Part shown: piece by piece, positions 1 through 16,668 of the stretch
Numbering within the stretch: the stretch's first letter is position 1
Layout: each line of letters opens with the position of its first letter
From: Desulfovibrio sp. An276
GTDB taxonomy: Bacteria; Desulfobacterota; Desulfovibrionia; Desulfovibrionales; Desulfovibrionaceae
Reading direction: 5' to 3'
Assembly (NCBI RefSeq): GCF_002159665.1
Contig: NZ_NFJC01000013.1
Span: 1 to 64,000 of the forward strand
Length of the DNA: 64,000 nucleotides
Made by a program: the position numbers and the translations under genes
The notes under the pieces: model-generated
Told to the model about the DNA's origin: nothing
Database searches by the model: none
What the model saw: the letters and a program-made list of their open reading frames with translations, nothing else

Positions 1-103
1 TGTAGGGCCGAGGAAGACTACCTCGTTGATAGGCTGGAGGTGGAAGTGCCGTGAGGCATGGAGCTGACCAGTACTAATAGCCCGTGAGTCTTATTCTTCC
101 AAA
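1..103 (+). rRNA. 23S ribosomal RNA, 3' end (partial)
   Basis: The first hundred bases match the conserved 3' end of bacterial 23S rRNA: the GATAGGCTGGAGGTGGAAGTG helix side, then GACCAGTACTAATAGCC. The gene runs off the left edge, so an rRNA operon lies to the left. The end is placed where conservation is lost and is approximate by a few bases. Confidence 0.93.
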
Positions 104-2022: not shown

Positions 2023-3771
2023 ATGCAGATTCTGGATTGCGACGTTGTTGTCGCCGGTGGCGGGCCTGCCGGCACCTTTGCGGCTGTGAAGGCCGCGGAG
2101 GCCGGAGCCCATGTCATACTGGTGGACAAGGCCTATGTGGGCAAGAGTGGCTGCGGCACCTTCGGGGCAGGCTCCTTCAAGGCCTACATCAAGGAAGAGG
2201 ACAGCTACGATCTCTGGTACGGCAAGGCCGTTGAGGAAGGCTTCTTCATCAACGATCAGGACTGGCTCAGGCAGCATTTCGAGACCATTGGGGATCGCGT
2301 GCACGATCTCGAGCGCTACGGTGTTGTCTTCGAGAAGAATCCCAACGGTACCTACAACCGCATCGAGGGCCAGGGTTCGTCCGACGAGCGCCCCATCAAG
2401 ACGCTCATGTTCCACGGCCCCCAGTTCATGGAAGTCATGCGCAAGGCCTGTGAAAAGACGGGCGTAAAGATTGTGGATCGCGTCATGTGCGTGAGCCTTG
2501 TGCACGACAAAAAGAAACCCAATGCCATACGCGGCGTTATGGGTTTCCACGGTGTCACTGGCGAGCTCTATCTTTTCAGGGCCAAGGCCGTTGTGCTCAC
2601 CACTGGCGCCCAGGCCTACAAGTCCCACTATGCAGATCTGCATATGGTGACTGGCGATTCCCACATCATGGGCCTCAATGCAGGCGCTGCCCTTTGCAAT
2701 TACGAGTTCAACTGCCACCAGCTGACACACGCTGGCTTTGCCACCCACGGCATGAACATTTCCCAGGGCCTGGGCGCCAAGTTTGTGAACGCCCTTGGCG
2801 AGGATTTCACAGCCAAGTACGATCCAGAGTACGCCTCCCACGGCAACCTGTGGCGTATTTCCGCCTCCATGGCCATGGAAGTGCATTTCGGGCGTGGCCC
2901 CCTTTATTTTGACTACTCCTCCTACACTCCGAAGGATTGGGAGCTTTTCGCGCGCACATTGCCCCTCATGTACAGATCCTATGTGCAGGCAGGCTACGTG
3001 ACCAACGAGGGCGTCTGTCGCAAGGGCAAGCTCGAATGGGTCTCTGCCCTCATTGGCAACGTGGGCTTTGGCGGAGGATTGTGGATCGACATCAACGGTC
3101 GCACCACTCTGGAGGGCCTCTACGCAGCAGGCGATGCGTCCTACGGTCCGACCTCGGGCGTGGAGGGCTTTTGCGCCTACGCCATGCCGGCTGCCTCCAC
3201 CACGGGAACCATTGCCGGTCAGTCCGCAGCTGCCTATGCCGCAAGCGTGGATGCTGTGGAGCTGGATCAGCAGGAGATAGACGCGGCTGCCTGGGCCATG
3301 ACAGAACCCATGCGCCATGCGACTGGCTGCGATCCCGCCCATGTGGTCATAGCCGTTCAGGAAGCCCTCTTCCCCTACGACGTCTACATTCTGCGTACAG
3401 AGGAGAAGATGCAAAGGGCGCTTTGCCGCATACAGGAGATCAAGGAGGACGACGTTCCCCGCCTCAAGGCTGCGGATCCCCATGGGCTGCGCTTTGCGCT
3501 TGAGGCCAGGAACATGGTGCTTTGTGCGGAAGCCATGCTCACTGCAGCACTTTTCCGCAAGGAGAGCCGCGGCTCCCATTTGCGCCTGGACTATCCGGAA
3601 ATCGACAATGAAAACTGGCTCAAGTGGATCATGATTGAAAAGGGTAGCGACAACGGGCTTGCGCTGTCCACGAAGGACATCCCCATTGACCGCTATCCCT
3701 TGCGCCCTGAAAGGAAGCGCGAGCTGCACGCCTCCATTGCCGCTGCCAGAAAACTCGGGGAGAACATCTGA
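2023..3771 (+). CDS. AprA/FrdA-like FAD-dependent oxidoreductase
   Basis: This is a 582-residue cytoplasmic flavoprotein of the fumarate reductase/succinate dehydrogenase/adenylylsulfate reductase alpha superfamily. An N-terminal Rossmann motif AGGGPAG at 11-17, VDKAYVGKSG at about 34-43, and a second FAD-contacting block GLYAAGDASYGPTSG near 366-380 are visible. The stop overlaps the start of a two-cluster ferredoxin, so the pair probably forms an AprAB-like heterodimer passing electrons between FAD and the clusters. It is not convincingly a true APS reductase: no sat or qmo genes are nearby, and the partner ferredoxin is much shorter than AprB. The downstream symporter and porin suggest that it acts on an imported substrate, which I cannot identify. 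Confidence 0.75.
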   Translation: MQILDCDVVVAGGGPAGTFAAVKAAEAGAHVILVDKAYVGKSGCGTFGAGSFKAYIKEEDSYDLWYGKAVEEGFFINDQDWLRQHFETIGDRVHDLERYGVVFEKNPNGTYNRIEGQGSSDERPIKTLMFHGPQFMEVMRKACEKTGVKIVDRVMCVSLVHDKKKPNAIRGVMGFHGVTGELYLFRAKAVVLTTGAQAYKSHYADLHMVTGDSHIMGLNAGAALCNYEFNCHQLTHAGFATHGMNISQGLGAKFVNALGEDFTAKYDPEYASHGNLWRISASMAMEVHFGRGPLYFDYSSYTPKDWELFARTLPLMYRSYVQAGYVTNEGVCRKGKLEWVSALIGNVGFGGGLWIDINGRTTLEGLYAAGDASYGPTSGVEGFCAYAMPAASTTGTIAGQSAAAYAASVDAVELDQQEIDAAAWAMTEPMRHATGCDPAHVVIAVQEALFPYDVYILRTEEKMQRALCRIQEIKEDDVPRLKAADPHGLRFALEARNMVLCAEAMLTAALFRKESRGSHLRLDYPEIDNENWLKWIMIEKGSDNGLALSTKDIPIDRYPLRPERKRELHASIAAARKLGENI

Positions 3772-3986
3772 TGGGAGTCAGACACATAGACAAGAAAAAG
3801 TGCCTGCGCTGCGGATTGTGCGTGACCATCTGCCCGCAGGATGTCCTGCGCAGGGACGATAAGAAGTACCCTGTCATCACCTATCTGCAGGACTGTCAGT
3901 CCTGTTTTCTGTGCGAAAAGTACTGCCCGGCCCAGGCCATCACTGTCTCCGCAGACAGGGAGCGACGCCCTGTACTGCCCTGGTGA
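3771..3986 (+). CDS. 2[4Fe-4S] ferredoxin subunit
   Basis: This 71-residue protein has two complete CxxCxxCxxxC motifs: cysteines 11, 14, 17, 21 and 42, 45, 48, 52. Each set is followed by proline, as in bacterial-type ferredoxins and the N-terminal part of AprB. Its ATG overlaps the TGA of the flavoprotein gene, which implies translational coupling and a stable complex. It lacks the C-terminal tail that wraps AprA in true APS reductase. Its likely role is to feed electrons to, or accept them from, the FAD subunit. Confidence 0.88.
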   Translation: MGVRHIDKKKCLRCGLCVTICPQDVLRRDDKKYPVITYLQDCQSCFLCEKYCPAQAITVSADRERRPVLPW

Positions 3987-4065
3987 GGATGCGCCCCCTG
4001 TCTGTGACAAAGGGACAGGGGCCTTTCGGACACAAAACAGGGAGCATCCAGCAAGGAGCACCTAA

Positions 4066-4212
4066 ATGATCGCCAACATGCCAGCCGATACCTTTCTCTT
4101 CTACGTCGGCGTCTTTTTGCTGCAGTTTGTCCTCGTGACAGGCTATGGCATCTGGTGGGCACTGCAAAAGGACAAGCCCCACACTGACGATGAAGAAGGA
4201 CTCGACACCTAA
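4066..4212 (+). CDS. Small single-helix membrane protein beside symporter
   Basis: This 48-residue ORF has a good ribosome site (AAGGAG, 13 bases upstream). One hydrophobic helix spans about residues 9-31 (FLFYVGVFLLQF...GIWWAL) and is followed by a charged, acidic tail ending EEGLDT. It lies between the ferredoxin and a sodium:solute symporter. Short one-helix partners are known for several SSS-family transporters, so an accessory subunit is the most natural guess. No family is recognised with certainty. Confidence 0.6.
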   Translation: MIANMPADTFLFYVGVFLLQFVLVTGYGIWWALQKDKPHTDDEEGLDT

Positions 4213-4298
4213 AGCCGGAAAGGTCCACCAATCCCCCGTAAGCCGGACATCCAGATGGCTAATACGACCGCAAGCCTGATCACATCGGGATTTTTGTC

Positions 4299-5771
4299 AT
4301 GACCGTAACCATTCTCATACTTGTCGGGTACTTTGTACTCATGCTTGCCATTGGCTGGATTGCCTCGCGCCGCATCCGCGATTCCAGGGACTACTTTCTC
4401 GGCGGCAAGGGCTTCGGGCCCTGGCTTACGGCCTTCAAGTTCGCCTCCACCTGGGAGAGCGGCGTGAAGCTCGTGGGCGCCCCGGGCATGGCCTGGAACG
4501 TGGGCTGGGCTGGGTTTTCCATGGGGATAGCGACACCCATCTGCTACTTCTTTTCCTTTCGCGTCTTTGGCCAGCGCCTGAAGGTAGCCTTTGATCACTT
4601 CAATGTGCTGACCCTGCCGCAGCTTCTGGAAAAGCGCTACCAGAGCCGTACTGTGCGCATCCTTGCGGCTGCAGCCATAGTCATAGGCCTTGGGGGCTCC
4701 CTTGTTGCCCAGTTCAAGGCAACGGGCGAGATCTTCAGCGTGACGCTCGAGACATCCTATCTGAACGGCCTTTTCCTTGGCGCAGGCATAGTGGGCGTCT
4801 ACTGCATTCTGGGAGGGTATCTTGCCTCTGTGTGGACGGACTGCCTGCAGGGCGTTCTCATGATCATTGGCTCCATAGTCATCATGGTGGCGACTGCCAC
4901 CGTGGCCTTCGGCGGCCTGCACTGGAACTTCATCCCTGAGCTGAACTTAAGCCTTGCGGCCATTGACTCGAACCTTCTGGACATCACGGGTGGCGGGAAG
5001 ATTCCGGTCACGCAGATTGTGATCATAGTCGTAATCACCGGCCTTGTGGGTCTTGCCCTACCACAGCAAAGCGTTGCCATCTTCAGCATGCGCGACGTGC
5101 GCACAGCGCGCACGGCCCTTGTGATCTGCACCTTCTTTTCCGCTATCCTTGCCTGGACGCTTGTGCCCACAGGCATGATGGCACGCATTGTGCTCGATCC
5201 GGCAACCATACCCAACCCGGACGCAGTCATACCCCTGCTCATACAAAAGGTTCTCTCGCCTGTGACAGGCGGGCTTTTCATAGCGGCCATACTTTCGGCC
5301 ATCATGTCCACAGTGAGCGGCAGCATCGTGGTTGCAGCAGCAACGCTTTCCGAGGATATCTTCAAACTGATCATTCCCGAGCGCTACGAAAGGCATCCTG
5401 TCCTCTACAATCGCGCAGGAGCCTCGTTCTTTGTGCTTGTGTCCATGCTGCTTGCCATTGAGCCTCCCACGATCATCTTCTGGATAGGCGTCTTTGCCTT
5501 CGGCTTTCTGGTCTTCACCTTCCTCATGCCCATGATAGGCGTCATCCTGCTTCCGCGCACACCAGCAAGGGCAGTCATTGCGCAGATGGTAGTAACCATG
5601 ATTGTCATTCCCATCTGGACCATTGTCGGACAGAAGGCAACCGGCATCCCTGCGCTGTTGGTGGGCCTTGTGATCTCGCCGCTCAGCTTCTTTGCTGTGT
5701 ACTGGCTTACAAGGGAAAAGCTCTTGAGAGAGGATATGGCACGGCTGTGGAAGAAGTTCGCGCGACTCTAG
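4299..5771 (+). CDS. Sodium:solute symporter (SSS family)
   Basis: This 490-residue inner-membrane transporter has about thirteen hydrophobic segments. The N-terminus is characteristic of the SSS/PutP-PanF superfamily: an SRRIRDSRDYFLGGKGFG block after helix 1, then WESGVKLVGAPG. It is predicted to import a small organic solute with sodium. The substrate cannot be read from the sequence. It sits in a same-strand series with a flavoprotein, ferredoxin and small membrane protein upstream and a porin downstream. No strong Shine-Dalgarno is seen before the ATG at 4299. A 15-codon ORF starting at 4256 ends across this start and might couple translation. Confidence 0.88.
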   Translation: MTVTILILVGYFVLMLAIGWIASRRIRDSRDYFLGGKGFGPWLTAFKFASTWESGVKLVGAPGMAWNVGWAGFSMGIATPICYFFSFRVFGQRLKVAFDHFNVLTLPQLLEKRYQSRTVRILAAAAIVIGLGGSLVAQFKATGEIFSVTLETSYLNGLFLGAGIVGVYCILGGYLASVWTDCLQGVLMIIGSIVIMVATATVAFGGLHWNFIPELNLSLAAIDSNLLDITGGGKIPVTQIVIIVVITGLVGLALPQQSVAIFSMRDVRTARTALVICTFFSAILAWTLVPTGMMARIVLDPATIPNPDAVIPLLIQKVLSPVTGGLFIAAILSAIMSTVSGSIVVAAATLSEDIFKLIIPERYERHPVLYNRAGASFFVLVSMLLAIEPPTIIFWIGVFAFGFLVFTFLMPMIGVILLPRTPARAVIAQMVVTMIVIPIWTIVGQKATGIPALLVGLVISPLSFFAVYWLTREKLLREDMARLWKKFARL

Positions 5772-6448
5772 ACGATACGGGAAGGTTGGGGCAGGAGCTT
5801 TCAAGCTCGGGCCTCAACTGGACTGTTCCTGCCCTGTACAAGCGCTACGGTTTCTTGCGCAGGCTGAAGGAAGAGGTCTTTTTCGATCTGCTCTACTACC
5901 CCTACTGGTTCTTGAGCTATCGGGAGGAGCTTTCCTGGCGATTCTTCGGGAAGAGGCAGGTTGAAGAGCTGCGCATTCTGGATGGTGTGAGCGCTCGCTC
6001 GCAAAAGCTCATTCAGGCCCCGGAAAGTGTGCGCGAGCGCATTGTGTTTGCCGAAGGCCCGGAGGATTGCGCACATCCGGACAATGCGCTCAAGACGTGT
6101 GGGGGCAGGCAGTTTGCGGAAGCCTTGGTGTTCAGGGGTGAGGATGTCCTGGTCAGGGCCAGGGCACACGTGGTGTCCTGCACTGTGACAAAAGAAGAGG
6201 CCCTTCAAAAGGGGTACTGCGATCTTTTGCGGGACATGGGCAAATTCTACAATAGACCACTGGGACTTTGGGCCACCATGACAAGTCTTGGGCAGGAGGC
6301 TGCACGTATCTGCAAGCCTTTCTGGATCATGCGCTCCCAAAGCCACGAGGAGAGGGTCTTTGTCTTTGACGCGAGCACTGGCCTTGGCGGTGTGGCAGAG
6401 TACTGGAATGTGGTGGACTATCTGACAAATACTGGGGGAGAAGGATGA
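5747..6448 (+). CDS. Hypothetical protein between symporter and porin
   Basis: I do not recognise this 233-residue protein. The GTG at 5747 overlaps the symporter stop by 25 bases, and its own stop overlaps the porin ATG (ATGA), so it is embedded in the operon. It has no signal peptide and no strong transmembrane segment. The N-terminal third is rich in aromatic residues (FFDLLYYPYWFLSY); the C-terminal part is mixed alpha/beta in appearance with FVFDAST. The start is uncertain: a TTG at 5786 with GGGAAGG directly before it is an alternative. Its position implies a cytoplasmic role linked to the imported substrate. Confidence 0.6.
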   Translation: MEEVRATLDDTGRLGQELSSSGLNWTVPALYKRYGFLRRLKEEVFFDLLYYPYWFLSYREELSWRFFGKRQVEELRILDGVSARSQKLIQAPESVRERIVFAEGPEDCAHPDNALKTCGGRQFAEALVFRGEDVLVRARAHVVSCTVTKEEALQKGYCDLLRDMGKFYNRPLGLWATMTSLGQEAARICKPFWIMRSQSHEERVFVFDASTGLGGVAEYWNVVDYLTNTGGEG

Positions 6449-8079
6449 GGAACAACACAAGAGATGCTGTCCAGGAAGATGGCCGTTTGAAAAAAAGTCC
6501 CAGAAAAGGGACAGGAGTCTTTGCAAGGGGCCTGCAGGTATTGCTTTTGGCAGCAGGACTTGTTTTCGCGCAGGCTCAAGGTGTCCGGGCAGTGGATTTC
6601 AAGGTTGCCGGCGAATGGGTCGTGAACTTTGACTACGGCCAGAACGGCAACTTCACTGGCGGCAACGGCCAGACAGGCTACAACGGCAGCCAGGACGAAT
6701 TCGACGCCAAGCAGCGGCTGCGCATACAGGTGGACGCTGTGGTCTCGGAGTATCTCTCCGGCACGGTCTTTTTCGAAATCGGCGAAACTACATGGGGCGA
6801 CGCCCCGACTGGTGGCGCTCTGGGCACGGATCAGCCCATCATAGAGGTGCGCCGCGCCTACATAGACTGGACCATCCCGGACACGAACTTCAAGGTGCGC
6901 ATGGGCCTGCAGGGCGCCATTGTGCCAAGCTACGCCATGGCAAAGCCGCAAAGCCTTGGCGATGACTTTGCTGCAGTGGCCTTCAGCTGGCAGTTCCACG
7001 AGAACGTGGGCGTGAGCGGCTTTTGGGGCAGGCTCTACAACGACAACTACGCTGGCCGCCCCAATGGCAGCGGGGGACGTTCCTACGCGAACTATCTGGA
7101 CAATCTGGATGCCTTTGTGCTGACTCTGCCCGTGACCTTCGATATGGGCAAGGTGACACCCTGGGTCATGTATGCAGCCATTGGCCCCAATGCCTTCAAG
7201 GGCTATGGTGAAAACGGGGAGTTTGACGGCGAAAGGTACGGCAATTTCAGCAATGCCACGGGCGTGTCCGGCCCCTGGATCACCAGAGGCCTTTTGCCTG
7301 CCTGGGCCAACAAGGTGATATTGCGCGGCGCAGACAAGGCCTTCGACTCCTACGGCAACGGTTTCTGGGCTGGTGTGACCGGCGACATTACGGTCATGGA
7401 CGCCCTGCGCATAGCCTGGGATTTTACCTACGGCACTGTGAGCTTTGATTCCAGCGCCTTCAACCGTCAGGGCTGGATGGGTGCCCTGCTTGTGGAATAC
7501 GCCTTTGACTGGGGCACACCCGGCCTTGTGGGCTGGTACGCGACAGGCGACGACGCAAACCTTGGCAACGGTTCCGAGCGTCTGCCTTCCATCAGCACTG
7601 GCGCCATGGACAATGTCTTTTCCAACTACGCCCTGGACGGCAAGGTCTACATCGGTCGCGACGCTGCCATGTACAACAACCTCGCTGGCTCCTGGGCGAT
7701 TGGCCTGCGCGTGCGTGACGTAAGCTTTATCGAGAACCTGACTCACATCTTCCGGGTGTACTACATAGGCGGCACAAACAGTGCCGGCATCCTGGACGAG
7801 GCGCGCAGCCGCGACTTCAATCCCACGCCCAACAACTTTGGCGGCCAGGCCTATGGCGTGGAGAACATGTATCTGACGGACCACGACTCTGCCATGGAAT
7901 TTGGCGTGACTTCGGTCCTTGATGTGTACGAAAATCTCAAAATAGCCCTGGACGTGGGCTATATTGCTCTGTGGCTGGACAAATCCGAGGATGTCTGGGG
8001 CAGCTCCAAAATCAACGGCAGGGACGACACCACGCGTGACGCCTGGAACGCCAACCTGATGTTCCTCTATTCCTTCTAA
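6445..8079 (+). CDS. Outer membrane porin, Desulfovibrio type
   Basis: This 544-residue beta-barrel protein has a signal peptide: basic residues to about 29, then a hydrophobic core LQVLLLAAGLVF, with likely cleavage after QGVRA near residue 49. The mature part is full of alternating aromatic/polar strands and ends in phenylalanine (LMFLYSF), as outer membrane proteins recognised by BamA do. It resembles the homotrimeric porins abundant in Desulfovibrio. The ATG overlaps the stop of the preceding gene. As the last gene of the series it would give the symporter substrate passage through the outer membrane. A stem-loop follows the stop. Confidence 0.85.
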   Translation: MRNNTRDAVQEDGRLKKSPRKGTGVFARGLQVLLLAAGLVFAQAQGVRAVDFKVAGEWVVNFDYGQNGNFTGGNGQTGYNGSQDEFDAKQRLRIQVDAVVSEYLSGTVFFEIGETTWGDAPTGGALGTDQPIIEVRRAYIDWTIPDTNFKVRMGLQGAIVPSYAMAKPQSLGDDFAAVAFSWQFHENVGVSGFWGRLYNDNYAGRPNGSGGRSYANYLDNLDAFVLTLPVTFDMGKVTPWVMYAAIGPNAFKGYGENGEFDGERYGNFSNATGVSGPWITRGLLPAWANKVILRGADKAFDSYGNGFWAGVTGDITVMDALRIAWDFTYGTVSFDSSAFNRQGWMGALLVEYAFDWGTPGLVGWYATGDDANLGNGSERLPSISTGAMDNVFSNYALDGKVYIGRDAAMYNNLAGSWAIGLRVRDVSFIENLTHIFRVYYIGGTNSAGILDEARSRDFNPTPNNFGGQAYGVENMYLTDHDSAMEFGVTSVLDVYENLKIALDVGYIALWLDKSEDVWGSSKINGRDDTTRDAWNANLMFLYSF

Positions 8080-8114
8080 ACGCCATGGGGGTGTGGCGCC
8101 TCTTCAATATGCAC

Positions 8115-8147
8115 GAGGCTCCCCTGACGCAAGGCAAGGGGAGCCTC
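8115..8147 (+). terminator. Stem-loop after porin
   Basis: GAGGCTCCCCT pairs perfectly with AGGGGAGCCTC across an 11-base loop, 35 bases after the porin stop. The T-run is weak (AAACTTT). A diverged copy of this hairpin with its flanks occurs at 10616-10666. Confidence 0.65.
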
Positions 8148-8171
8148 AAACTTTGGAGGAGTGGGCGGCGC

Positions 8172-9446
8172 TCAGAAGAGCTGGACACGATCGAGGAGCA
8201 GATCAACGAGATTGCAGTGGAAAATCCCCTGATTGTCGTGGAAGTTGTGGGGAATATCCATGCGAACGACCACCTTGCGGAAAAAATCTCCCGTAAGCTT
8301 CAGGGATGCGAGCTCGGAAGACTCCTTTGCTTCTGTATCCATCCTGAAGGCGGACTGGATATAAACTCTTTTGTCCATGTCATTCACGACAAAATCGATT
8401 TCCCTTTGAGTGTTGGCACCATTGGTGCGATCGCTCACAACGCCCACGTCAACGGAATAGCCGCGCCGAACAAGCTCAAGGTAGAGGATATTCTCCATGA
8501 TATGCCCCGGATCGTACTGCCGAAAGTTGAGCCGTGCGTTGCGAAGTCCCATATCCGTATAGTAGTACTTGTTTGGGTATTTAAAATATGTCTTTCCTTT
8601 AACGTCATAGCGTTTTGCCATGGAAACAAGAAAAGAATCGATGATATGCTGTGTATAATTTGAGACAAGAGAGGAACTAATTTTTTCGTTACGCATGCTT
8701 GTCAGAGCGTTTGCTATTTTTGTAGGATTTGTCAAAGAACTTATCTGAGATGCCAAAAAATCAAGAATATTATTTAATATATCTTCTCGTTCTATTTTAT
8801 ATCGTTCAACGATATCTTTAACATATAATTCCTGATAAAGTGAGGCAAGATACTCTTTTTTATCGTTTTCATCTTGAAGAAATGTAAGACGTGGCATGCC
8901 ACCATACAGCATGTAGTTTTCAAGAGCCTTTTGTTCGTCTCCTCCGAAAAACGAGGAGAATTCGGAAAAACTCAAGGGAAAAACATGGATCTGGGTGGCA
9001 CGACCACGAAATTCTGTTGAGATATCCCTGGAAAGGCCTTGAGAGTTGCTGCCTGTCACATAGACATCCAGATTCTTGTACGATTTGAGCTCGTTCAGCA
9101 TGTCATAGATAGAAACCTCGATATCACCGTTTTCTCTGTCAATGACCTTGAACGTGAACTGAACCTCATCAATAAAGAGATAAAATTTTTCTTCCGGATG
9201 TTTTGTGACAACGCTCTCGACAAACTCGCACAGGGTGATCGGATTCCTGAATCTGTAGAAGCGTCTTTGATCCAGTTCTATCTTGAGGATATGATTTTCC
9301 TCTACCCCTTGGGACAAAAGATAGTTGTTGAACAACTCAAAGAGCAGCACAGATTTGCCACAGCGCCGAATCCCCGTGACTACCTTGATTTCTCCGTTCC
9401 ACATATGGCGTATCAGGCGATTGAGATAGAAGTCTCGCTGGATCAT
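8172..9446 (-). CDS. AAA ATPase with DUF4143 domain
   Basis: This 424-residue ATPase belongs to the AAA_14/DUF4143 family. The Walker A motif TGIRRCGKS is at residues 24-32 and Walker B FYLFIDE at about 88-94; the C-terminal DUF4143 part carries REIDFVVND, which resembles a nuclease-fold core. The biological role of the family is unsettled; copies are numerous in gut bacteria. The gene is visibly more AT-rich than its neighbours, above all from 8570 to 9460, and stands alone in opposite orientation to the porin operon. Both features suggest recent acquisition. AGAGGT precedes the ATG. Confidence 0.85.
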   Translation of the reverse strand: MIQRDFYLNRLIRHMWNGEIKVVTGIRRCGKSVLLFELFNNYLLSQGVEENHILKIELDQRRFYRFRNPITLCEFVESVVTKHPEEKFYLFIDEVQFTFKVIDRENGDIEVSIYDMLNELKSYKNLDVYVTGSNSQGLSRDISTEFRGRATQIHVFPLSFSEFSSFFGGDEQKALENYMLYGGMPRLTFLQDENDKKEYLASLYQELYVKDIVERYKIEREDILNNILDFLASQISSLTNPTKIANALTSMRNEKISSSLVSNYTQHIIDSFLVSMAKRYDVKGKTYFKYPNKYYYTDMGLRNARLNFRQYDPGHIMENILYLELVRRGYSVDVGVVSDRTNGANTQREIDFVVNDMDKRVYIQSAFRMDTEAKESSELASLKLTGDFFRKVVVRMDIPHNFHDNQGIFHCNLVDLLLDRVQLF

Positions 9447-9662
9447 AGCACGTACCTCTTACTTATGACGTATTTGTCGTTACTTTTTTGCATGATAGGC
9501 AAGATTTCTGAAAAATCAAGAGATTGGAGGAGTCAATCATGGCTTTGACTCTCTTTGCCTGGCCAGATAGATTCTCCCAAAGCGTTCCCCCTGGACCTTT
9601 CGTCTGTCCGCCAATCCAGACTGTATGCCAGGCGCTCTTTTTGCTAAATTTCAAGGAATAGC

Positions 9663-10394
9663 ATGGATCTTTCCCTGTTCGTCTCGATTCTCGCCTGGTT
9701 TGTGGCCGCCTTTGTCAGCGGCCTGTGCGGCATAGGCGCCGCCGCTATCGCGACAGCCATACAGATCACCGTCATGCCCGTGCAGACTGTGGTGCTTGTC
9801 TCCTGTCTCACAGGTTTGTCTGTCGGCCTTGTCATGAGCCTCAGATACTTTCGCTACTGTCGCTGGAAGACTGCCATGCTCATGTTTGGGGGCACCATCC
9901 CCGGTTCCCTTTTGGGCCTGTTCATCCTGCAGTACGCTCCTGCCCATATCCTGGAAATCTTCGTGGGCATCATGCTCATCTTCTGCACTGCGGGCATGGC
10001 TCTTTTCAAAAACGTCAGTCTCTTGCGGGAAAGCACGGCAGCAAGCATTGTCGTGGGCATGATAGGCGGCATGCTTGGTACCTGCGTGAACATAGATGGA
10101 CCCGTTGTCGCCATTTACGGTCTGCAGGCTGGCTGGCAGCCGCTAATCTTCCTTGGGACCACCAGCATCTACTTCCTTTTGCGCATTCTGGTTACCTGCA
10201 CCATGCAGGCTTCGGCTGGCCTCTATACGACTGAAATACTCCACTATGTGTTTTTTTGCGTGCCCTTTGTGGTACTGGGGATCCTGCTTTCCATGCCGGT
10301 CGTGAAGAGAGTGAATGCGGAAACCTTTCGCAAGGTTGTCCAGGCTGTCATTGTACTGGCAGGCATATTGTGTCTTGGCAGGGCCATCCTGTGA
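9663..10394 (+). CDS. TauE/SafE family membrane exporter
   Basis: This 243-residue membrane protein has about eight hydrophobic helices. The glycine-rich start FVSGLCGIGAAAIA and the repeat-like GMIGGMLGTCVNIDGP fit the TauE/SafE family (formerly DUF81). Members export sulfite, sulfoacetate or related anions and often accompany organosulfonate degradation. Here the gene stands alone, some 43 kb from the taurine-type importer, so a sulfur role is plausible but not shown. AAGGA lies just upstream of the ATG. The terminator-like hairpin at 10622-10653 follows. Confidence 0.82.
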   Translation: MDLSLFVSILAWFVAAFVSGLCGIGAAAIATAIQITVMPVQTVVLVSCLTGLSVGLVMSLRYFRYCRWKTAMLMFGGTIPGSLLGLFILQYAPAHILEIFVGIMLIFCTAGMALFKNVSLLRESTAASIVVGMIGGMLGTCVNIDGPVVAIYGLQAGWQPLIFLGTTSIYFLLRILVTCTMQASAGLYTTEILHYVFFCVPFVVLGILLSMPVVKRVNAETFRKVVQAVIVLAGILCLGRAIL

Positions 10395-10621
10395 TGGTTG
10401 TGAGCAGATTGTCAGGCAACAGAATTTTTGTACCAGGATTCGACAACAAAAGTATACCAGTCGTCAGCCAAAATCCGACAGGAAAATGTACCAGCGCCTG
10501 CTTTGGAAGAAGCCAGGTGGGTGCCATACAGAGGGGGGCAGGGCTTGCCCTGTGTCTGGCTCGCGCCCGTGCCAGTACAAGGCTAAACCGCTTCGCGACA
10601 CTTGCGCCCACCAACATGCAT

Positions 10622-10653
10622 GAGGCTTTCCTGTTGCAAGAGATGGGAGCCTC
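10622..10653 (+). terminator. Hairpin after TauE-like gene
   Basis: GAGGCT pairs with AGCCTC, with imperfect inner pairing, and AATCTTTT follows. The hairpin and its flanks closely resemble the one after the porin at 8109-8158, so it may be a dispersed repeat used as a terminator. Confidence 0.5.
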
Positions 10654-10790
10654 AATCTTTTGGAGAAGGGGAGAGGGGCAGGAGGCCATTGTGCCATATT
10701 GCCAAGGCAGAAACGTATCCATTGCGAAAGGACACAGACAGCAGGCAGCGGGGCAGTGCGGGGGAAAGCCCCCTTGTCCCCATGGGCGCG

Positions 10791-10829
10791 GTTCCGGAAT
10801 TCGAATCTCTGTCTCTCCGCGACACATGG
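10791..10829 (+). pseudogene. tRNA-Ser 3' end fossil
   Basis: TTCGAATCTCTGTCTCTCCGC at 10800-10820 matches the T-loop and acceptor end of the intact tRNA-Ser(GGA) at 14555-14646 with one change, and similarity continues a few bases past the acceptor. The T stem no longer pairs (GGAA against CTCT), and no 5' half can be found upstream. It is a relic, not a functional tRNA. It is in opposite orientation to the intact gene. Confidence 0.5.
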
Positions 10830-10994
10830 CAGCCCTCCTTGTAACACAACATGATATTGATCCCACACGCGACACAAAACTGTTCCTCCCTCGATTCTGG
10901 ATGGTTGGGGCAGAGCCTTGCCAATGCCGCAAAAGGGGATACACTCCCGAAAACCCCGGACCTGTCCGGACTCAATCTCCTGGGAGCACCTCGC

Positions 10995-11609
10995 ATGACC
11001 GCTTTTTTTCAGGGGCTGTCGCTTGGCCTTGCCTACGTCGCACCCATTGGGCTGCAAAACCTCTTTGTCATCAACTCCGCCCTGTCCCGTCCGCGATGGG
11101 TTGCCTTCCGCATTGCGGGGATAGTGATCTTCTTCGATATCCTGCTCTCTATGGCAGGCTTTTTCGGTGTGGGCGCCATCATCACCCGTTCGGATCTTGC
11201 GAAGATGGTGATCCTGGGAGTTGGCAGTCTGCTTGTTTTTGTCATAGGTGCTAGGCTTGTCTTGAGCCGCGATGTTGCGACAGCAGAGCTTTCCATGGAC
11301 ATGCCATTGTGGAAGGTGGCCTGGATGGCCTTTGCAGTAACCTGGCTCAACCCCCAGGCCCTGCTTGATGTCTCTCTTCTTTTGGGGGCATTTCGTGCTG
11401 TTTTGGCGGAGAGCGAGACTACTGCCTTCATCCTGGGCGTAGTCTCGGCCTCAAGCATGTGGTTTTTTTGGCTTACGGCAGCGACAAGCCTTCTGAAAAG
11501 CCGCTTCACGCCCAAGGTTTTGCGCATCATCAACCTTGTCTGCGGCCTTGTGATCTGCGGCTACGCCATCAGTCTTGCGCTCTCCTTTATGGACCTTGTG
11601 CGGGGGTGA
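10995..11609 (+). CDS. LysE/ArgO family amino-acid exporter
   Basis: This 204-residue membrane protein has six hydrophobic segments. The N-terminus MTAFFQGLSLGLAYVAPIGLQNLFV is the classic LysE start, and TWLNPQALLD near residue 117 is the second family hallmark. It is predicted to export basic amino acids such as lysine or arginine from the cytoplasm. An in-frame extension to 10851 exists, but the family alignment supports 10995. No LysG-type regulator is next to it. Confidence 0.85.
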   Translation: MTAFFQGLSLGLAYVAPIGLQNLFVINSALSRPRWVAFRIAGIVIFFDILLSMAGFFGVGAIITRSDLAKMVILGVGSLLVFVIGARLVLSRDVATAELSMDMPLWKVAWMAFAVTWLNPQALLDVSLLLGAFRAVLAESETTAFILGVVSASSMWFFWLTAATSLLKSRFTPKVLRIINLVCGLVICGYAISLALSFMDLVRG

Positions 11610-11694
11610 TGTGGCAAGCGACCTTATGGGCAATATCTTTCCTGATATCACTTTCTTGGCACGCAGAACGACAAACGTTTATCATGATGAACTA

Positions 11695-11736
11695 CCTCGC
11701 ACTTACGTGCGAGGTTTCGCGGGGGCGTACCCCCGC
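11695..11736 (+). repeat. Two adjacent perfect hairpins
   Basis: CCTCGCAC/GTGCGAGG with a TTAC loop (11695-11714) and GCGGGGG/CCCCCGC with a CGTA loop (11719-11736) stand 4 bases apart, and TTTT follows. They lie 85 bases after lysE and upstream of a gene fragment. They could terminate lysE, or be a residual end of a hairpin-bounded mobile element. Confidence 0.6.
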
Positions 11737-11813
11737 TTTTAGCAATATTCCGAGTTCGAAACATTGGTGCAGATCTCGGACTACTGCGGACGTGTCCACA
11801 ACGCCCCCATCGA

Positions 11814-12200
11814 GTTAAATGGGGAGAAGCTCTTTCCGTGGATCGCGCAGGCCTGCTTGTGCGGCTTTTTGTTGCCAAGGAGCAGAAGATCCAGCTCGAC
11901 AGGGACAACGGCAATGGTGGCGGCAATGGCAATAGCGGCGCTGGAACTACGATTACTCCGCCTTCTCCCAAGACCCACAACTTCTTCATGACAGCCGAGC
12001 TTGATTCCGTCCGCATCAACAGGGACGTGAACCGTATCCTGGAGGAAGTGACCTCGCATCTGGCAAATTCCGGCATGAAGCTGAAGTTCAGGCTGGAAGT
12101 CAGTGGCGAGTCTCCCGATGGCGTGGATCAGCAGACTGTCCGCACTGTCGTGGAGAATTGCATGGCGCTCAAGATCAGGGACTTCCATTTCGACGAATAG
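11814..12200 (+). pseudogene. DUF499-type ATPase, C-terminal fragment
   Basis: The reading frame encodes ALSVDRAGLLVR, a low-complexity G/N-rich linker, then FFMTAELDSVRINRD, RILEEVTSHL and VRTVVENCMALK. These match the C-terminus of large DUF499 ATPases, which occur in defence-like and restriction-linked loci. The family is normally around a thousand residues; only about 125 remain and no start with a ribosome site exists. The 5' edge of similarity is near 11814. It is a dead remnant, perhaps of a lost defence island. Confidence 0.55.
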
Positions 12201-12233
12201 TCCCTATTGTCAGTGTCTGACAAAACAAAAAAT

Positions 12234-12262
12234 ACCCGTCGGGGCTTTGTCCTCCGACGGGT
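12234..12262 (-). terminator. Terminator of AraC fragment
   Basis: ACCCGTCGG pairs with CCGACGGGT. On the minus strand the stem is followed by TTTTTTGTTTTG, a strong rho-independent terminator just past the AraC-like stop. Confidence 0.8.
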
Positions 12263-12304
12263 GTATCATCTTGAGATAGCTGGCCTTTCTGCTCTATAGC
12301 GAGT

Positions 12305-12507
12305 TCAGCACAGCTCTATGCGTTTCTTGTGCGTGTCTTTGAGCGGCGATTCTCCGAACATGCGCTTGTACTCGCGGCTGAACTGGGTAGGGCTCTCATA
12401 GCCCACTGCATAGGCTGCACTGGCAACGTCGTATTCACCATTCAGCATCATGCGCTGGGCCTCAGCCGCAGGGTCTTCTGGTACTGCAGGGGGCTCAAGG
12501 ACGTCAT
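12305..12507 (-). pseudogene. AraC-type regulator, C-terminal HTH fragment
   Basis: From 12507 downward the minus strand reads SPLQYQKTLRL, then after a net one-base loss near 12460 continues as QRMMLNGEYDVASA, GYESPTQFSREYKRMFG. These are the second helix-turn-helix and hallmark residues of AraC/XylS regulators. The N-terminal domain and first helix-turn-helix are missing. The fragment begins exactly where the AAA/PD-(D/E)XK gene stops (12504-12506), so a DNA junction is visible here. The terminator at 12234-12262 is intact. Confidence 0.7.
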
Positions 12508-14207
12508 CGAACCCCCATCTTGCAGGACTTCTTGTAAAACGCCATCCCCCAGTGGAGGATCTGTGTGTAGCCTCTGGTCTTGAGCTCTGTGTCGTACTGG
12601 CGCTCTTCGATCTGCAGCAGGGCCTTTTCGACTTCAGCCTCCAGCTCTTCCCTAGAATCGGCGCGCTTGACCTCAATGACTGCGGCACGCTTGTCCCGTT
12701 CATCCTGCACAATGAGATCGAAAAAGCCCTCTCCGGCTTCCCTGTTGGAGGTTACTGGATACAAGAGCATGAAGATGCCAAGCAGGAAGGAGTGATAGAA
12801 GTGCTCCCTGTACTTGTAGTCTTGGACACTAGAACTTGTGAGAAGCATCGTCCCAAGCGACTTTTCCAGATTCTGCGCATCGCCCTTCCAGAACAGATTG
12901 AAAAAGTCTTCTTGCTTGTCCTTGGGCAGCATCTGGCTGAACCAGGATTTGATTTCGTTTCGGAAAACATCCTTCACTTCCCTGTTGGGAATGGCAAGAA
13001 CTGTTCGCCCGGGGCCAGGAGGCACAACGCAATTTGCGCTATCCGAAGAAGGTGTCAGATAGCCTGTGAGATAGAGCAGCGTCCAGAAATTGTCCTCATC
13101 TGTGTATATCTGGTTGTAGTTGAGGTCTTCCTTGATCGCTACTGCTATGTTTTTTCCTTCTGTCAGAGAGGCTATATCATCCTGGACTGTCGAGGGCATA
13201 CGCCCCAAGAAGGCCTTGGTCAGCTCGTTGCCACTAGTTCCTACCCAATAAGCTTTCGGCTTTTCTTGGGGAATACTTTGCGCATCGGCAAGATACTTCA
13301 TTATGCTCCAGGGGCAATAGATATCCGAACGATCTCCAAAATGATACCCGTCGTACCATGACTTAAGCTCGTCCCGTTTTTCTTCAAGGCCAGCGTCGAA
13401 AAGCATCTGGTCTACTTCACATTGCGTGAATCCAAAGACGTCAGCATACTTGGGATTGGCGATATCAAAGCAGTCCAGATTATTCAGACCAGTAAAGATG
13501 CTTTCCTTGGTGATGCGCAAGGCTCCTGTAAGGATGCCAAATTTGAGATAGGGATTTGTTTTCAGCGCGTCCGAGAGAAAACCGCGCATGAACACGATCA
13601 TCTCGTCGTAGTAGCCCCTCTCCGCAGCCTTTGCGACAGGTACATCGTATTCGTCAATGAGAAGGATGACAGGTTTGTTGTAGTGCTGGAAGAGGACTCT
13701 GGTGATCGTGAGAAGAGAGCTGCAGAGTGTAGTCTCGTTTGTTTCGCAATCTATCAGTTTTTGAAAAAGCCTTCGATCTCTGGATTTGATGTTGGCGTTC
13801 TCTAGAACTTCGTCGTGCAGTGTGCATATCTCGCTGATCAGATTTTGTATGCTCTCTACGGCTTCTTTGTATGTTAGCTTGTCAGCTCTCTTCAGAGTCA
13901 GGGAGACGACGGGATACTGGTTCATCCACTCCCTGCATAGAGTCTTGTTTTCGGCAACCTTGAGACCCGCAAAAAGCTCCCCGCTGTTTTTTGTGACATC
14001 GAAAAACTCGGCCAGCATGGACATGAACATCGTCTTGCCGAAACGCCTAGGGCGAGTGAAAAGCGTAGCGCTTGAAGGCAAGCGGAAACGGGTGGCATCA
14101 GTTGGATCTTGAAGAAATTGCACCAGAAATTCGGTTTTGTCGACGTAGTAGCCGTAATTTTGGCGCAGTTTCGCAAACAGTTCGACATTAACAATGTTGA
14201 TCGGCAT
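12504..14207 (-). CDS. AAA ATPase-like / PD-(D/E)XK nuclease protein
   Basis: This 567-residue protein has an N-terminal AAA-ATPase-like domain with RPRRFGKT (Walker A) at 52-59 and VILLIDEYD (Walker B) near 179. A C-terminal PD-(D/E)XK nuclease-like domain follows, with GFFDLIV at 494-500 and IEVK at 511-514. This is the former DUF1703 family, common in Bacteroidetes and gut bacteria in many copies, of unproven function. Family members usually end shortly after the FYKKSCK block; here the last codons run into an AraC fragment, giving an odd MGVR end. GGGAGGAAGGAG precedes the ATG. Confidence 0.85.
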   Translation of the reverse strand: MPINIVNVELFAKLRQNYGYYVDKTEFLVQFLQDPTDATRFRLPSSATLFTRPRRFGKTMFMSMLAEFFDVTKNSGELFAGLKVAENKTLCREWMNQYPVVSLTLKRADKLTYKEAVESIQNLISEICTLHDEVLENANIKSRDRRLFQKLIDCETNETTLCSSLLTITRVLFQHYNKPVILLIDEYDVPVAKAAERGYYDEMIVFMRGFLSDALKTNPYLKFGILTGALRITKESIFTGLNNLDCFDIANPKYADVFGFTQCEVDQMLFDAGLEEKRDELKSWYDGYHFGDRSDIYCPWSIMKYLADAQSIPQEKPKAYWVGTSGNELTKAFLGRMPSTVQDDIASLTEGKNIAVAIKEDLNYNQIYTDEDNFWTLLYLTGYLTPSSDSANCVVPPGPGRTVLAIPNREVKDVFRNEIKSWFSQMLPKDKQEDFFNLFWKGDAQNLEKSLGTMLLTSSSVQDYKYREHFYHSFLLGIFMLLYPVTSNREAGEGFFDLIVQDERDKRAAVIEVKRADSREELEAEVEKALLQIEERQYDTELKTRGYTQILHWGMAFYKKSCKMGVR

Positions 14208-14500
14208 GCTCCTTCCTCCCGAGGCACGCTGTCCTTGTCATTGGGCCTTCTCTAAAGTTGCTGCTCTCCTCCCGCGTTGCAAGGGGTCAACACATTTCGG
14301 GTGAAATTCTATCACAAGGACAAGGTACGGTTTTCGTTTTTTGCGGTCAATCCAATGTCCGAGGCAAAACACTGCGGTGCTCGTCGTCTGCAAGGACGTA
14401 TTCTGCCCTTGCGCAGTACATATGGAAGGCAACACCCTTTTAGCAGACGCGCCGAAATACCCCATCTGTAAGTGGGACATAAGGCGCGCTATAATAAAAA
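14208..14500. other. Gap upstream of AAA/nuclease gene
   Basis: About 290 bases between the AAA/nuclease start and the tRNA-Ser terminator. I see no recognisable gene, only short open frames without ribosome sites or family motifs. It must hold the promoter of the minus-strand gene. Confidence 0.4.
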
Positions 14501-14540
14501 AGCAGTCTTTGTAGACCCTTGGGTCTTAACAAAGACTGCT
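14501..14540 (-). terminator. tRNA-Ser terminator
   Basis: AGCAGTCTTTGT pairs perfectly with ACAAAGACTGCT. On the minus strand it is followed by TTTTTTATTAT. It lies 14 bases past the tRNA-Ser CCA end. Confidence 0.88.
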
Positions 14541-14554
14541 CTTGCTTCCATAAG

Positions 14555-14646
14555 TGGCGGAGAGATAGAGATTCGAACTCTAGAACGGCTTTAGACCGTT
14601 ACACGATTTCCAATCGTGCTCCTTCGGCCAACTCGGACATCTCTCC
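14555..14646 (-). tRNA. tRNA-Ser (anticodon GGA)
   Basis: On the minus strand the gene starts GGAGAGATG, has the anticodon arm CACGATTGGAAATCGTG (anticodon GGA, for UCC/UCU), the long variable arm typical of serine tRNAs, T-loop GTTCGAATC, and ends TCTCTCCGCCA with the CCA encoded. The 7-bp acceptor stem pairs fully. A terminator follows. Confidence 0.95.
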
Positions 14647-14710
14647 GCGAGTGAACTTGTGCCTTATACGCACTAATCGTAACTTTGGCAAGCAAAAAAT
14701 CAGCAAAAAA

Positions 14711-14872
14711 TCACTTTTTTTCCTGCTGGCCAGATTTTTCTTCTTCAGTGCCTGCCTCTGGCTCCCTGTTCCGCGAGCGTTGGGAGTGTTTCTTGCCTAC
14801 CCAGTAGAACAAGCCAAGCCCAAGTATGCCCGCAAGGGTGATGCCCACCTCGTTGACAGCCTGGACATCCAT
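14711..14872 (-). CDS. Small membrane protein downstream of fabI
   Basis: A 53-codon ORF starts 9 bases after the fabI stop on the same strand. The product has one hydrophobic helix at about residues 9-25 (VGITLAGILGLGLFYWV), followed by a strongly basic then acidic/glutamine tail with KKHSQRSRNR and EEEKSGQQEKK. This is a typical one-pass small membrane protein. AGGGG lies close upstream. It would be co-transcribed with hisD-purC-fabI. Function is unknown. Confidence 0.55.
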   Translation of the reverse strand: MDVQAVNEVGITLAGILGLGLFYWVGKKHSQRSRNREPEAGTEEEKSGQQEKK

Positions 14873-14881
14873 GGGAAGCCC

Positions 14882-15646
14882 CTAGAAGGCCATATTGCTG
14901 AAACCGCTGTCCACGAAGAGGACCTGACCGGTCACAGCGCTGGCAAGGTCGGAAGCGAGATAGACTGCAGTGCCACCCACATCGGTTGTCTCGATGTTGC
15001 GATGCAGGGGAGCAGTTTCCTCAACCTTGCTGAACACGCTCTTGAGCCCGCTCACTGCGGAGGCAGCCAGGGTCTTGACTGGGCCAGCACTTATGGCATT
15101 CACACGCACGCCCTTGGCGCCAAGGTCATAGGAGAGGTAGCGCACGGAAGCTTCGAGGGCTGCCTTGGCAACACCCATGACGTTGTAGCCGGGGACGATC
15201 TTGGTAGAACCGTAGTAGGTCATGGCCATGACGGAGCCACCCTCGTTCATCAGGGGTGCAAAGGCGCGACAGATGCCGAGCAGAGAGTAGGCGGAAATGT
15301 CCAGGGCCAGATGGAAGCCCGCGCGGGTGGTGTGCAGGAAATCGTCCTTCAGATCCTCGCGGTTGGCGTAGGCCACGGAATGGACAAGAATGTCGACGCC
15401 GCCCCACTTTTCCTTCACGAGCTCGGCTGCAGCCTCGATCTGATCGTCCTTGCTCACATCGCACTGGAAGGTGAACTCGCCACCAATTTCCTCTGCCAGG
15501 GGATCAAGGCGCTTCTTGATGGCGTCACCGACGTAATTGAAGGCCAGCCTTGCACCGGCAGCCTTGAACGACTGGGAAATGCCCCAGGCAATGCTCTTGT
15601 TGTTTGCGACGCCAAAAACAAGGGCTTTCTTTCCTTCAAGCAACAT
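14882..15646 (-). CDS. fabI: Enoyl-[acyl-carrier-protein] reductase (NADH)
   Basis: This 254-residue short-chain dehydrogenase-like enzyme performs the last reduction of each fatty-acid elongation cycle (trans-2-enoyl-ACP to acyl-ACP, using NAD(P)H). The FabI cofactor motif FGVANNKSIAWG is at residues 11-22. The catalytic Y-x6-K pair is Y154 and K161 (GYNVMGVAK), and SVAYANR near 90-96 is the typical FabI strand. Length is normal. It follows purC by 30 bases on the same strand, so it is probably in the hisD-purC-fabI unit. Confidence 0.95.
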   Translation of the reverse strand: MLLEGKKALVFGVANNKSIAWGISQSFKAAGARLAFNYVGDAIKKRLDPLAEEIGGEFTFQCDVSKDDQIEAAAELVKEKWGGVDILVHSVAYANREDLKDDFLHTTRAGFHLALDISAYSLLGICRAFAPLMNEGGSVMAMTYYGSTKIVPGYNVMGVAKAALEASVRYLSYDLGAKGVRVNAISAGPVKTLAASAVSGLKSVFSKVEETAPLHRNIETTDVGGTAVYLASDLASAVTGQVLFVDSGFSNMAF

Positions 15647-15676
15647 ATTTGTTCTCCCTTGAGCTGGTTATGGAAA

Positions 15677-16576
15677 CTAGTGGATACCCAGCTCGCGTCC
15701 CGTGAGGATGCGATAGGCGTCCTGGTACTTGGCTGCCGTGGCCTCGACCACTTCTTCGGGCAGGGCGGGCGCAGGCGGCTGCATGTCCCAGGGCTGGCTC
15801 TTGAGCCAGTCGCGCAGATACTGCTTGTCAAAGCTGGGCTGGCTATGCCCGGGCTCGTAGCTTTCTGCTGGCCAGAAACGAGAGGAGTCCGGAGTCAGAA
15901 CCTCGTCGATAAGGTGCAGGGTTCCATCAATGATGCCGAATTCCAGCTTTGTGTCGGCCACGATGATGCCGCGGGAGGCAGCGTAGTCGCGTCCCTTCTT
16001 GTAGATGGCCAGGGTCTTTTCCTCGACCTCCTTGGCAATGTCCTCGCCAAGGAGTGTACGGGCGCAGTCTACCGTGATGTTCTCGTCGTGCTGTCCGAAC
16101 TGGGCCTTGGTGGAAGGAGTGAAGATGGGCTCTTCCAGCTTGTCGGATTCCTTCAGACCCTCGGGAAGCTTGTGACCGCAGATAGTGCCGTCATCCTGGT
16201 AGGATTTCCAGCCGGAGCCGGAAATGTAGCCGCGCACAATGCATTCCACGGGCAGGGGACGGGCCCTGCGCACCAGGACTGCGCGGCCTTCGAGCTGGTC
16301 TGCCCAGGGCTGCAGTTCCTGGGGGAATTTGTTCACATCGCTTTCAATGATGTGGTTCGGCACGATGTCCTTGAACATGTCCATCCAGAACAATGTGATC
16401 TGGTTCAGGACAACACCCTTGTAGGGAATGGGTCTGGACATCATGACGTCGAAGGCGCTCATGCGGTCTGTGGTCACAATGAGCAGGGTTTTGTCGTCAA
16501 CGGCGTAGATGTCGCGCACCTTGCCGCGGGACAGGAGAGGAAAAGCGTTTATGCCCGTACGGGTAATTATTTTCAC
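15677..16576 (-). CDS. purC: SAICAR synthase
   Basis: This 299-residue phosphoribosylaminoimidazole-succinocarboxamide synthase joins aspartate to CAIR with ATP, the eighth purine step. SRGKVRDIY (nucleotide site) is at 16-24, TTDRMSAFDV at 35-44, and VRGYISGSGWKSY and IVADTKLEFG are the other PurC signatures. Length corresponds to the longer form of the family. The start codon is GTG with GAGGTG upstream. It lies between hisD and fabI on the same strand with short gaps. Confidence 0.96.
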   Translation of the reverse strand: MKIITRTGINAFPLLSRGKVRDIYAVDDKTLLIVTTDRMSAFDVMMSRPIPYKGVVLNQITLFWMDMFKDIVPNHIIESDVNKFPQELQPWADQLEGRAVLVRRARPLPVECIVRGYISGSGWKSYQDDGTICGHKLPEGLKESDKLEEPIFTPSTKAQFGQHDENITVDCARTLLGEDIAKEVEEKTLAIYKKGRDYAASRGIIVADTKLEFGIIDGTLHLIDEVLTPDSSRFWPAESYEPGHSQPSFDKQYLRDWLKSQPWDMQPPAPALPEEVVEATAAKYQDAYRILTGRELGIH

Positions 16577-16668
16577 AAAACACCTCGTCTAGGTTGCTCC
16601 TGCCTGTGCGCATGGGCGCTGCGGGGCCTTGGCCCAGACAATCGGCAGGGAATGGAGCGAAGGGCGCT

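Follow-up and report, generated by a model that had tools for sequence, protein, structure and literature searches.

What does the run of six same-strand genes near the start of a Desulfovibrio sp. An276 contig do, and for which substrate? The window, by which we mean the whole stretch analysed (64,000 nucleotides), is the first 64 kb of the 71,846-base contig NZ_NFJC01000013.1, and the genes in question encode a flavoprotein (flav), a small ferredoxin (fdx), a one-helix peptide (pep), a symporter of the SSS family (sss), a protein of no recognised family (unk) and a porin (por). We found that, apart from the porin, these genes form a conserved module in some sulfate reducers of the Desulfovibrio family. 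The module most likely represents an operon dedicated to the uptake and redox conversion of a single small organic substrate, with an aromatic, tryptophan-like amino acid as the leading candidate, a reading to which we assign a probability of about 0.4.

One scan of genome contigs for the module returned 16 loci. The module was found in 13 of the 288 family genomes drawn and in two of 44 genera, the window's own and that of the Mailhella loci. The order flav-fdx-pep-sss-unk is retained in all 12 other copies that cover the five genes (L009, L010, L011, L013, L014, L015, L016, L017, L031, L063, L064 and L065), three of which (L063, L064 and L065) carry only the 3' part of flav. Left out of this count were loci that end inside the module (L012, L018, L020, L021 and L024) or hold only its end (L067 and L105), and repeats of copies already counted were dropped (L001, L006-L008, L051-L058, L066 and L070). 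The presence of flav is matched by that of unk: flav orthologues (above 1000 bits) occur in 12 of the 288 genomes, and unk in the same 12 and in G631, the thirteenth module genome, where contig ends truncate flav (L020, L021, L064 and L065). None of the other 275 genomes has unk at E <= 0.001, and a distant 360-bit flav relative in G147, found without unk, was not counted as an orthologue. These absences are not certain, because the best four candidates per genome were scored for flav and the best ten for unk, and because 83 of the 288 genomes fall below a standard of 90% completeness and 5% contamination. The proposal of a dedicated substrate module, made in a first-pass annotation of this DNA, is strengthened by the retained order and by the co-occurrence of flav and unk; the neighbourhood search that it had named beforehand as a possible refutation showed that the genes stay together in relatives.

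The flanks of the module vary. dgkA lies further upstream in the window and in L009, and L012 and L015 have AmtB and PII genes ahead of the module. A regulator of sigma-54 type flanks it in L016, L031 and L020, and a divergent flanking protein ('hth', the name being a guess; no Pfam match for the copy tested) is found in L011, L017, L021 and L024. Such differences among copies, which extend to the porin and to a lyase gene (tnaA) described below, would suit genes that are neighbours by descent and share no pathway, with the symporter and the flavoprotein serving different substrates. We regard this as unlikely, since the five-gene order is constant while the flanks change and unk falls to 34% identity, and since G631, G632 and G633 each carry two module copies as assembled. 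Over the 2.2 kb compared, the G631 copies share 87% identity. In each of these three genomes one copy has tnaA and the other is without it in the available sequence; contig breaks fall within or next to the module at L020, L021, L064 and L065 (G631), at L012, L024 and L067 (G632) and at L013 and L105 (G633). The module in L013 is followed (4747-9753) by genes for a LysR regulator, a TRAP DctM permease and an NMT1-like binding protein and by the start of another FrdA-like flavoprotein gene.

Turning to the enzyme, flav consists of FAD_binding_2 and Succ_DH_flav_C domains (Pfam), and its closest solved chain (8a8o, E 2.7e-43) is the alpha subunit of the 3'-phosphoadenylyl-sulfate (PAPS) reductase of Methanothermococcus thermolithotrophicus, for which an FAD-N5 mechanism has been proposed (PMC10322725). 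The first-pass annotation had argued against a canonical adenylyl-sulfate (APS) reductase, and rightly so. flav scores 97.6 with TIGR02061 (cut-off 641.75) and 181.5 with PRK06854 (cut-off 557), and a true aprA is encoded elsewhere in the same genome (1098.4 bits with TIGR02061). Clustering within the APS reductases, set in advance as the refuting outcome, was not found: in a small tree of 25 rows, 20 including the module split 100/100 from the five that hold PAPSR and AprA_own, the latter a long branch. Furthermore, the Arg of ENRF/EMRF and the His of GSHS/GGHG, which AprA and PAPS reductase share and which we take to be catalytic, are replaced by Asn230 and Val347 in all eight aligned module rows. 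The six genes include neither sat nor qmo, which were not searched for in the remainder of the window and genome. APS reductase identity is thus ruled out by scores, tree and replaced residues. A divergent enzyme of this kind might still act on a sulfonate or an S-sulfo compound, releasing sulfite via an FAD-N5 adduct and so feeding sulfite respiration. While the closest solved chain, the aprA of the host genome and the matching type of beta subunit are in its favor, we consider such an enzyme quite improbable given the position of flav outside the AprA/PAPSR clade, the loss of both presumed catalytic residues (the Arg position holds Cys or Thr in the relatives grouped as f34), and the lack of any recognised sulfonate-specific neighbour in the module loci, where most flanking genes were not family-scanned.

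A fumarate reductase, or some other redox enzyme for dicarboxylates served by an uptake system of its own, is suggested by superfamily membership and by the best full-length NCBIfam matches of flav, the fumarate reductase models PRK08275 and PRK06263 (TfrA-like). However, the scores lie far below the cut-offs (219.1 against 587 and 218.7 against 718, respectively, and 202.7 against 567.3 for TIGR01812), and the module has no membrane anchor subunit. In a HMMER alignment to E. coli SdhA (1nek), in which the HYMMGG stretch is placed uncertainly, the positions that we take to be those of the covalent FAD-linking His and of the catalytic or dicarboxylate-binding residues align with non-equivalent residues: the His of SHT with Gly43, the His of HPTG with Thr235, the Arg of GRD with Leu276 and the Arg of ANR with Gly382. 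With scores this low and the SdhA-type residues not kept, the odds of fumarate reductase identity are low and we judge this explanation very improbable. Glu381, adjoining the position of the SdhA dicarboxylate-binding Arg, is invariant in 10/10 rows, which we count in favor of an amino acid substrate. The AlphaFold2 model obtained for flav was of poor quality, with a mean pLDDT of 61.6, and was set aside. A plasmid search returned only relatives at 24-28% identity (15 records). Two further FrdA-like flavoprotein loci lie on contig C12 of the same genome (L032, G000:C12:22001-42000; 6922-10540 and 10802-17955). One includes a ferredoxin gene and a porin gene (48% identity); at the other are LysR-like genes, a CitMHS transporter and a large protein resembling the NAD(P)-binding Fe-S protein tested in L031.

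The ferredoxin is the probable electron partner. It has eight Cys in two CxxCxxCxxxC motifs and Fer4 domains (Pfam), and is thus of the two-cluster ferredoxin type expected of a beta subunit beside an AprA-type flavoprotein. At or near its end the module, f34 and L068 copies carry RERRxxLPW or RERRxxMPW, and most other ferredoxin copies end in -PW, -PY or -AW; because of this characteristic tail we consider fdx a dedicated partner. The flavoprotein has a ferredoxin next to it in the module and in f34, L068, L022, L087, L088, L019, L030 and L075, but not in L076 or L077. In L069 (G138:C1:1415001-1435000; 7313-10788) a flavoprotein-ferredoxin pair stands beside a CitMHS-type transporter, a parallel unit of transporter and flavoenzyme.

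Relatives outside the module clade point to a further possibility. The two f34 relatives (L028 and L029; 50-52% identical) share R.EGQGSS..RPIKT, NYEF.CH and SGVEGF with the module flavoproteins, and both pair flav-fdx with a TAXI-TRAP transporter. From the outgroup loci surveyed, flavoproteins of the wider family often accompany a transporter and a ferredoxin, with further partners that vary. Among relatives outside the Desulfovibrionaceae with profile A1 scores of 430 bits or more, UbiD adjoins five of six (L022, L028, L068, L087 and L088; not L029), L023, whose flav is cut at residue 253, being left out of the count. flav could therefore draw on ferredoxin to reduce an arene or an unsaturated acid, serving as an electron sink: UbiD or a lyase would strip the side chain from the ring, and the substrate of flav would be the bare ring itself or an unsaturated acid related to it. 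The UbiD neighbours make this a serious rival, and the TAXI-TRAP pairing, together with the general suitability of a ferredoxin partner for low-potential reduction, is consistent with it. On the other hand, no UbiD was seen in the available sequence of five other relatives (L030, L075, L076 and L077, which score lower, and L019, not scored with A1) or matched in the available module loci, and among the 25 rows the cover-loop signature R.EGQGSS..RPIKT is confined to the module and f34 and is missing from L022, L068, L087 and L088. Overall we see a reductase of this type as possible, if doubtful.

An aromatic amino acid as the substrate is suggested by the genes that adjoin the module in relatives. 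A gene of the tryptophanase/tyrosine phenol-lyase (TPL) family lies directly downstream of the module in L011, L014, L017, L064 and L067, and in L105 a lyase begins about 100 bases after the symporter end (16-17 residues, identified by eye), leaving no room for unk. In L010 another lyase, about 50% identical, is directly upstream and so provides an independent link. Genes of the tnaA family occur in seven of the 13 module genomes (E <= 1e-60; all pass 1e-90), and all seven adjoin the module. In a 149-genome family sample the tnaA family was found in seven at E <= 1e-90, one of them module-bearing, giving six of 145 others and a Fisher p of 5.6e-6 for the enrichment, uncorrected for relatedness. 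The L010 and L011 lyases pass the NF009709 subfamily cut-off of 285 (710.2 and 619.9), and for the five other lyases the match is by BLAST alone. In the L014 lyase, Leu occupies the position of TPL Arg381, presumably the residue that binds the phenol hydroxyl, and a C-terminal His that we take to be a tryptophanase feature is retained. In L090 (G066, without a flav match) tnaA is followed by a Trp_Tyr_perm permease, in the place that sss occupies in the module; no permease was seen beside the lyase gene in L089. The AmtB-PII neighbours fit nitrogen release, and the run in L029 includes 2-oxoacid:ferredoxin oxidoreductase-type genes, which we also count toward this reading. The first-pass annotation had left the substrate unnamed, and the tnaA-type lyase, AmtB-PII and UbiD neighbours in relatives now narrow it.

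If the substrate is an aromatic amino acid, it would pass the outer membrane through the porin, where present, and be imported by the Na+-driven SSS symporter with the peptide as accessory subunit. In the cytoplasm the flav-fdx enzyme would move two electrons between the substrate (the amino acid or a product of it), FAD and two [4Fe-4S] clusters. The reaction would tie the substrate to the electron pool of the sulfidogen as either an oxidation or a reduction, the sequence not setting the direction. In some relatives the lyase may form an optional branch from the same amino acid to pyruvate, ammonium and an arene. A narrower and more tentative proposal is that flav-fdx represents a new activity in the fumarate reductase/AprA superfamily, namely a two-subunit FAD/2[4Fe-4S] oxidoreductase for tryptophan, another aromatic amino acid or the released arene, with its own Na+ symporter and lyase-paired in some species.

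Several observations weigh against an aromatic amino acid. Nine of at least 16 module copies have no tnaA alongside (in L012 the contig ends first) and six of the 13 module genomes, including that of the window, have none at E <= 1e-60, so that the lyase is optional. The six downstream Mailhella lyases probably go back to a single inherited event. The L010 and L011 lyases both stay below the tryptophanase and TPL equivalog cut-offs (584.8 and 449.8 against 825.8 for TIGR02617, the TnaA equivalog; 595.6 and 574.5 against 750 for NF053783; 514.8 and 532.6 against 720.7 for TIGR02618, tyrosine phenol-lyase). L028, as well as more distant flavoproteins, adjoins UbiD and not amino-acid genes. The specificity of SSS carriers cannot be deduced from sequence, and we know of no experimental work on any module member.

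As for the transporter, the symporter matches PF00474 with 165.4 bits (gathering score 22.8) and is thus a member of the SSS superfamily. It scores 222.2 with the PanF model TIGR02119 (cut-off 328.05) and does not reach the PutP cut-off either. Symporter homologues give no hint of substrate, since a sample of 197 other genomes of the phylum yielded none outside the module at E <= 1e-70. Small membrane proteins serve as accessory subunits of some SSS carriers, and pep is probably such a subunit of this symporter: 21 residues are invariant in 8/8 aligned copies, including the MIANMP...YG(I/V)WW region, and mean hydropathy is 1.94 over 19 residues from residue 11. No NCBIfam model matched pep, and its Pfam matches are weak and below cut-off. 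The AlphaFold2 model of unk is confident (pTM 0.80); Foldseek found no fold match at E <= 0.001, and structural comparison (VIA best Z 3.5) gave no strong or recognised one.

The porin stands apart from the other five genes. It reaches the cut-off of NF033939 DESULF_POR1 (392 bits against 250), and is one of eight such porins in the genome of the window. A porin gene is found 3' of the module in the window and in L009 and L010, and L063 has one in broken pieces; none was seen beside the Mailhella module loci in available sequence. The broken gene in L063 (10519-11378, genome G607) is in four pieces, not in one frame, with residues 233-511 missing. From this distribution the porin looks like a lineage-specific addition on the Desulfovibrio branch, and its membership of the module, as claimed in the first-pass annotation, was not borne out.

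Comparison with known systems places the module in a known superfamily, with an active site of neither known pattern and in a new gene context. Like AprAB and the Methanothermococcus PAPS reductase, it pairs a fumarate reductase superfamily flavoprotein, the FAD-carrying alpha subunit, with a two-cluster ferredoxin-type beta subunit. It differs from them in the placement of flav outside their clade, the replaced Arg and His (presumed catalytic), the minimal ferredoxin with its -LPW tail, and partners that comprise a symporter, joined in relatives by a tryptophanase-type lyase. The TfrA-like PRK08275/PRK06263 flavoproteins, although the best full-length matches, are set apart by the wide score gap, and flav does not retain SdhA-type active-site residues. 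Tryptophanase and a tryptophan permease form the tnaA-tnaB operon type, which the module resembles in placing a lyase of that family beside an importer in seven genomes; in the module, however, an SSS symporter replaces Trp_Tyr_perm, a flavoenzyme is added and the window's genome has no lyase. With PanF and PutP the symporter shares the SSF family, and in the module a one-helix peptide just upstream, but it stays below their cut-offs and the peptide reaches no family cut-off. A literature search of titles and abstract openings, in which subscription papers were thinly covered, gave no description of this gene order. Flavoproteins of the superfamily carry the labels 'fumarate reductase/succinate dehydrogenase' or 'adenylyl-sulfate reductase' (the plasmid relatives, for example), and to our knowledge their substrates are mostly not known. 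The module links a clade without either known active-site pattern to a ferredoxin and a transporter, with a lyase as a further partner in seven genomes, making the substrate directly testable. Tryptophan and indole matter in gut physiology. Should the substrate prove to be an aromatic amino acid, Desulfovibrio-family sulfidogens would gain a route for using such compounds, and sulfidogenic bacteria would be connected to tryptophan and indole.

All six open reading frames (ORFs) are present as first annotated. Between the window and L009, dN and dS are 0.041 and 0.447 for flav, 0.037 and 0.309 for fdx, 0.096 and 0.533 for pep, 0.031 and 0.531 for sss, 0.218 and 0.852 for unk and 0.061 and 0.525 for por; dN/dS is below 1 for each gene here and also against L010, indicating that the six are genes and not chance ORFs.

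Table 1. Genes of the run, with coordinates in the window
Feature	Coordinates	Strand	Assignment and basis
Flavoprotein (flav), 582 aa	2023..3771	+	FAD alpha subunit, AprAB/PAPS-reductase-like, fumarate reductase superfamily; Pfam, 8a8o match, tree
Ferredoxin (fdx), 71 aa, 2[4Fe-4S]	3771..3986	+	Fer4 domains; probable beta subunit / electron partner
One-helix membrane peptide (pep), 48 aa	4066..4212	+	Conservation, hydropathy; probable symporter accessory subunit (putative role)
SSS-family Na+/solute symporter (sss), 490 aa	4299..5771	+	PF00474; PanF/PutP-like, under their cut-offs
Module-specific protein (unk)	5747..6448	+	Start uncertain: GTG 5747 or TTG 5786
Desulfovibrio-type outer-membrane homotrimeric porin (por)	6445..8079	+	NF033939 DESULF_POR1; start 6445 or TTG 6487

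Of the gene overlaps reported earlier, that of flav and fdx is plain (1 nt, TGATG), and those involving unk and the porin are uncertain because the starts of these two genes are. The symporter/unk overlap depends on the GTG start. The TTG is an alternative since the called unk start lies 3' of the sss stop in L009 and L010 and conserved residues of unk begin near residue 20. An ATG overlap of unk and the porin at 6445 is possible; the porin TTG, preceded by AGGAAG, would by our reading yield a more usual signal peptide. A promoter scan was at background level (4 found, 3.4 expected), and a terminator scan found 12 against 8.2 expected (sd 2.6). There were no repeats in the three intergenic gaps examined, no sigma-54 site upstream of flav by pattern scan (12 sequences) and no Rfam element within the module at gathering scores. 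The contig begins with the 3' end of a 23S rRNA (window 1-98) and a 5S rRNA gene (149-263), and was probably broken at a ribosomal operon. Beyond the porin, two minus-strand ORFs (8172-9446 and 12504-14207) appear ATPase-like by eye, neither reaching an NCBIfam cut-off, and a counterpart of the first also adjoins the module in L009.

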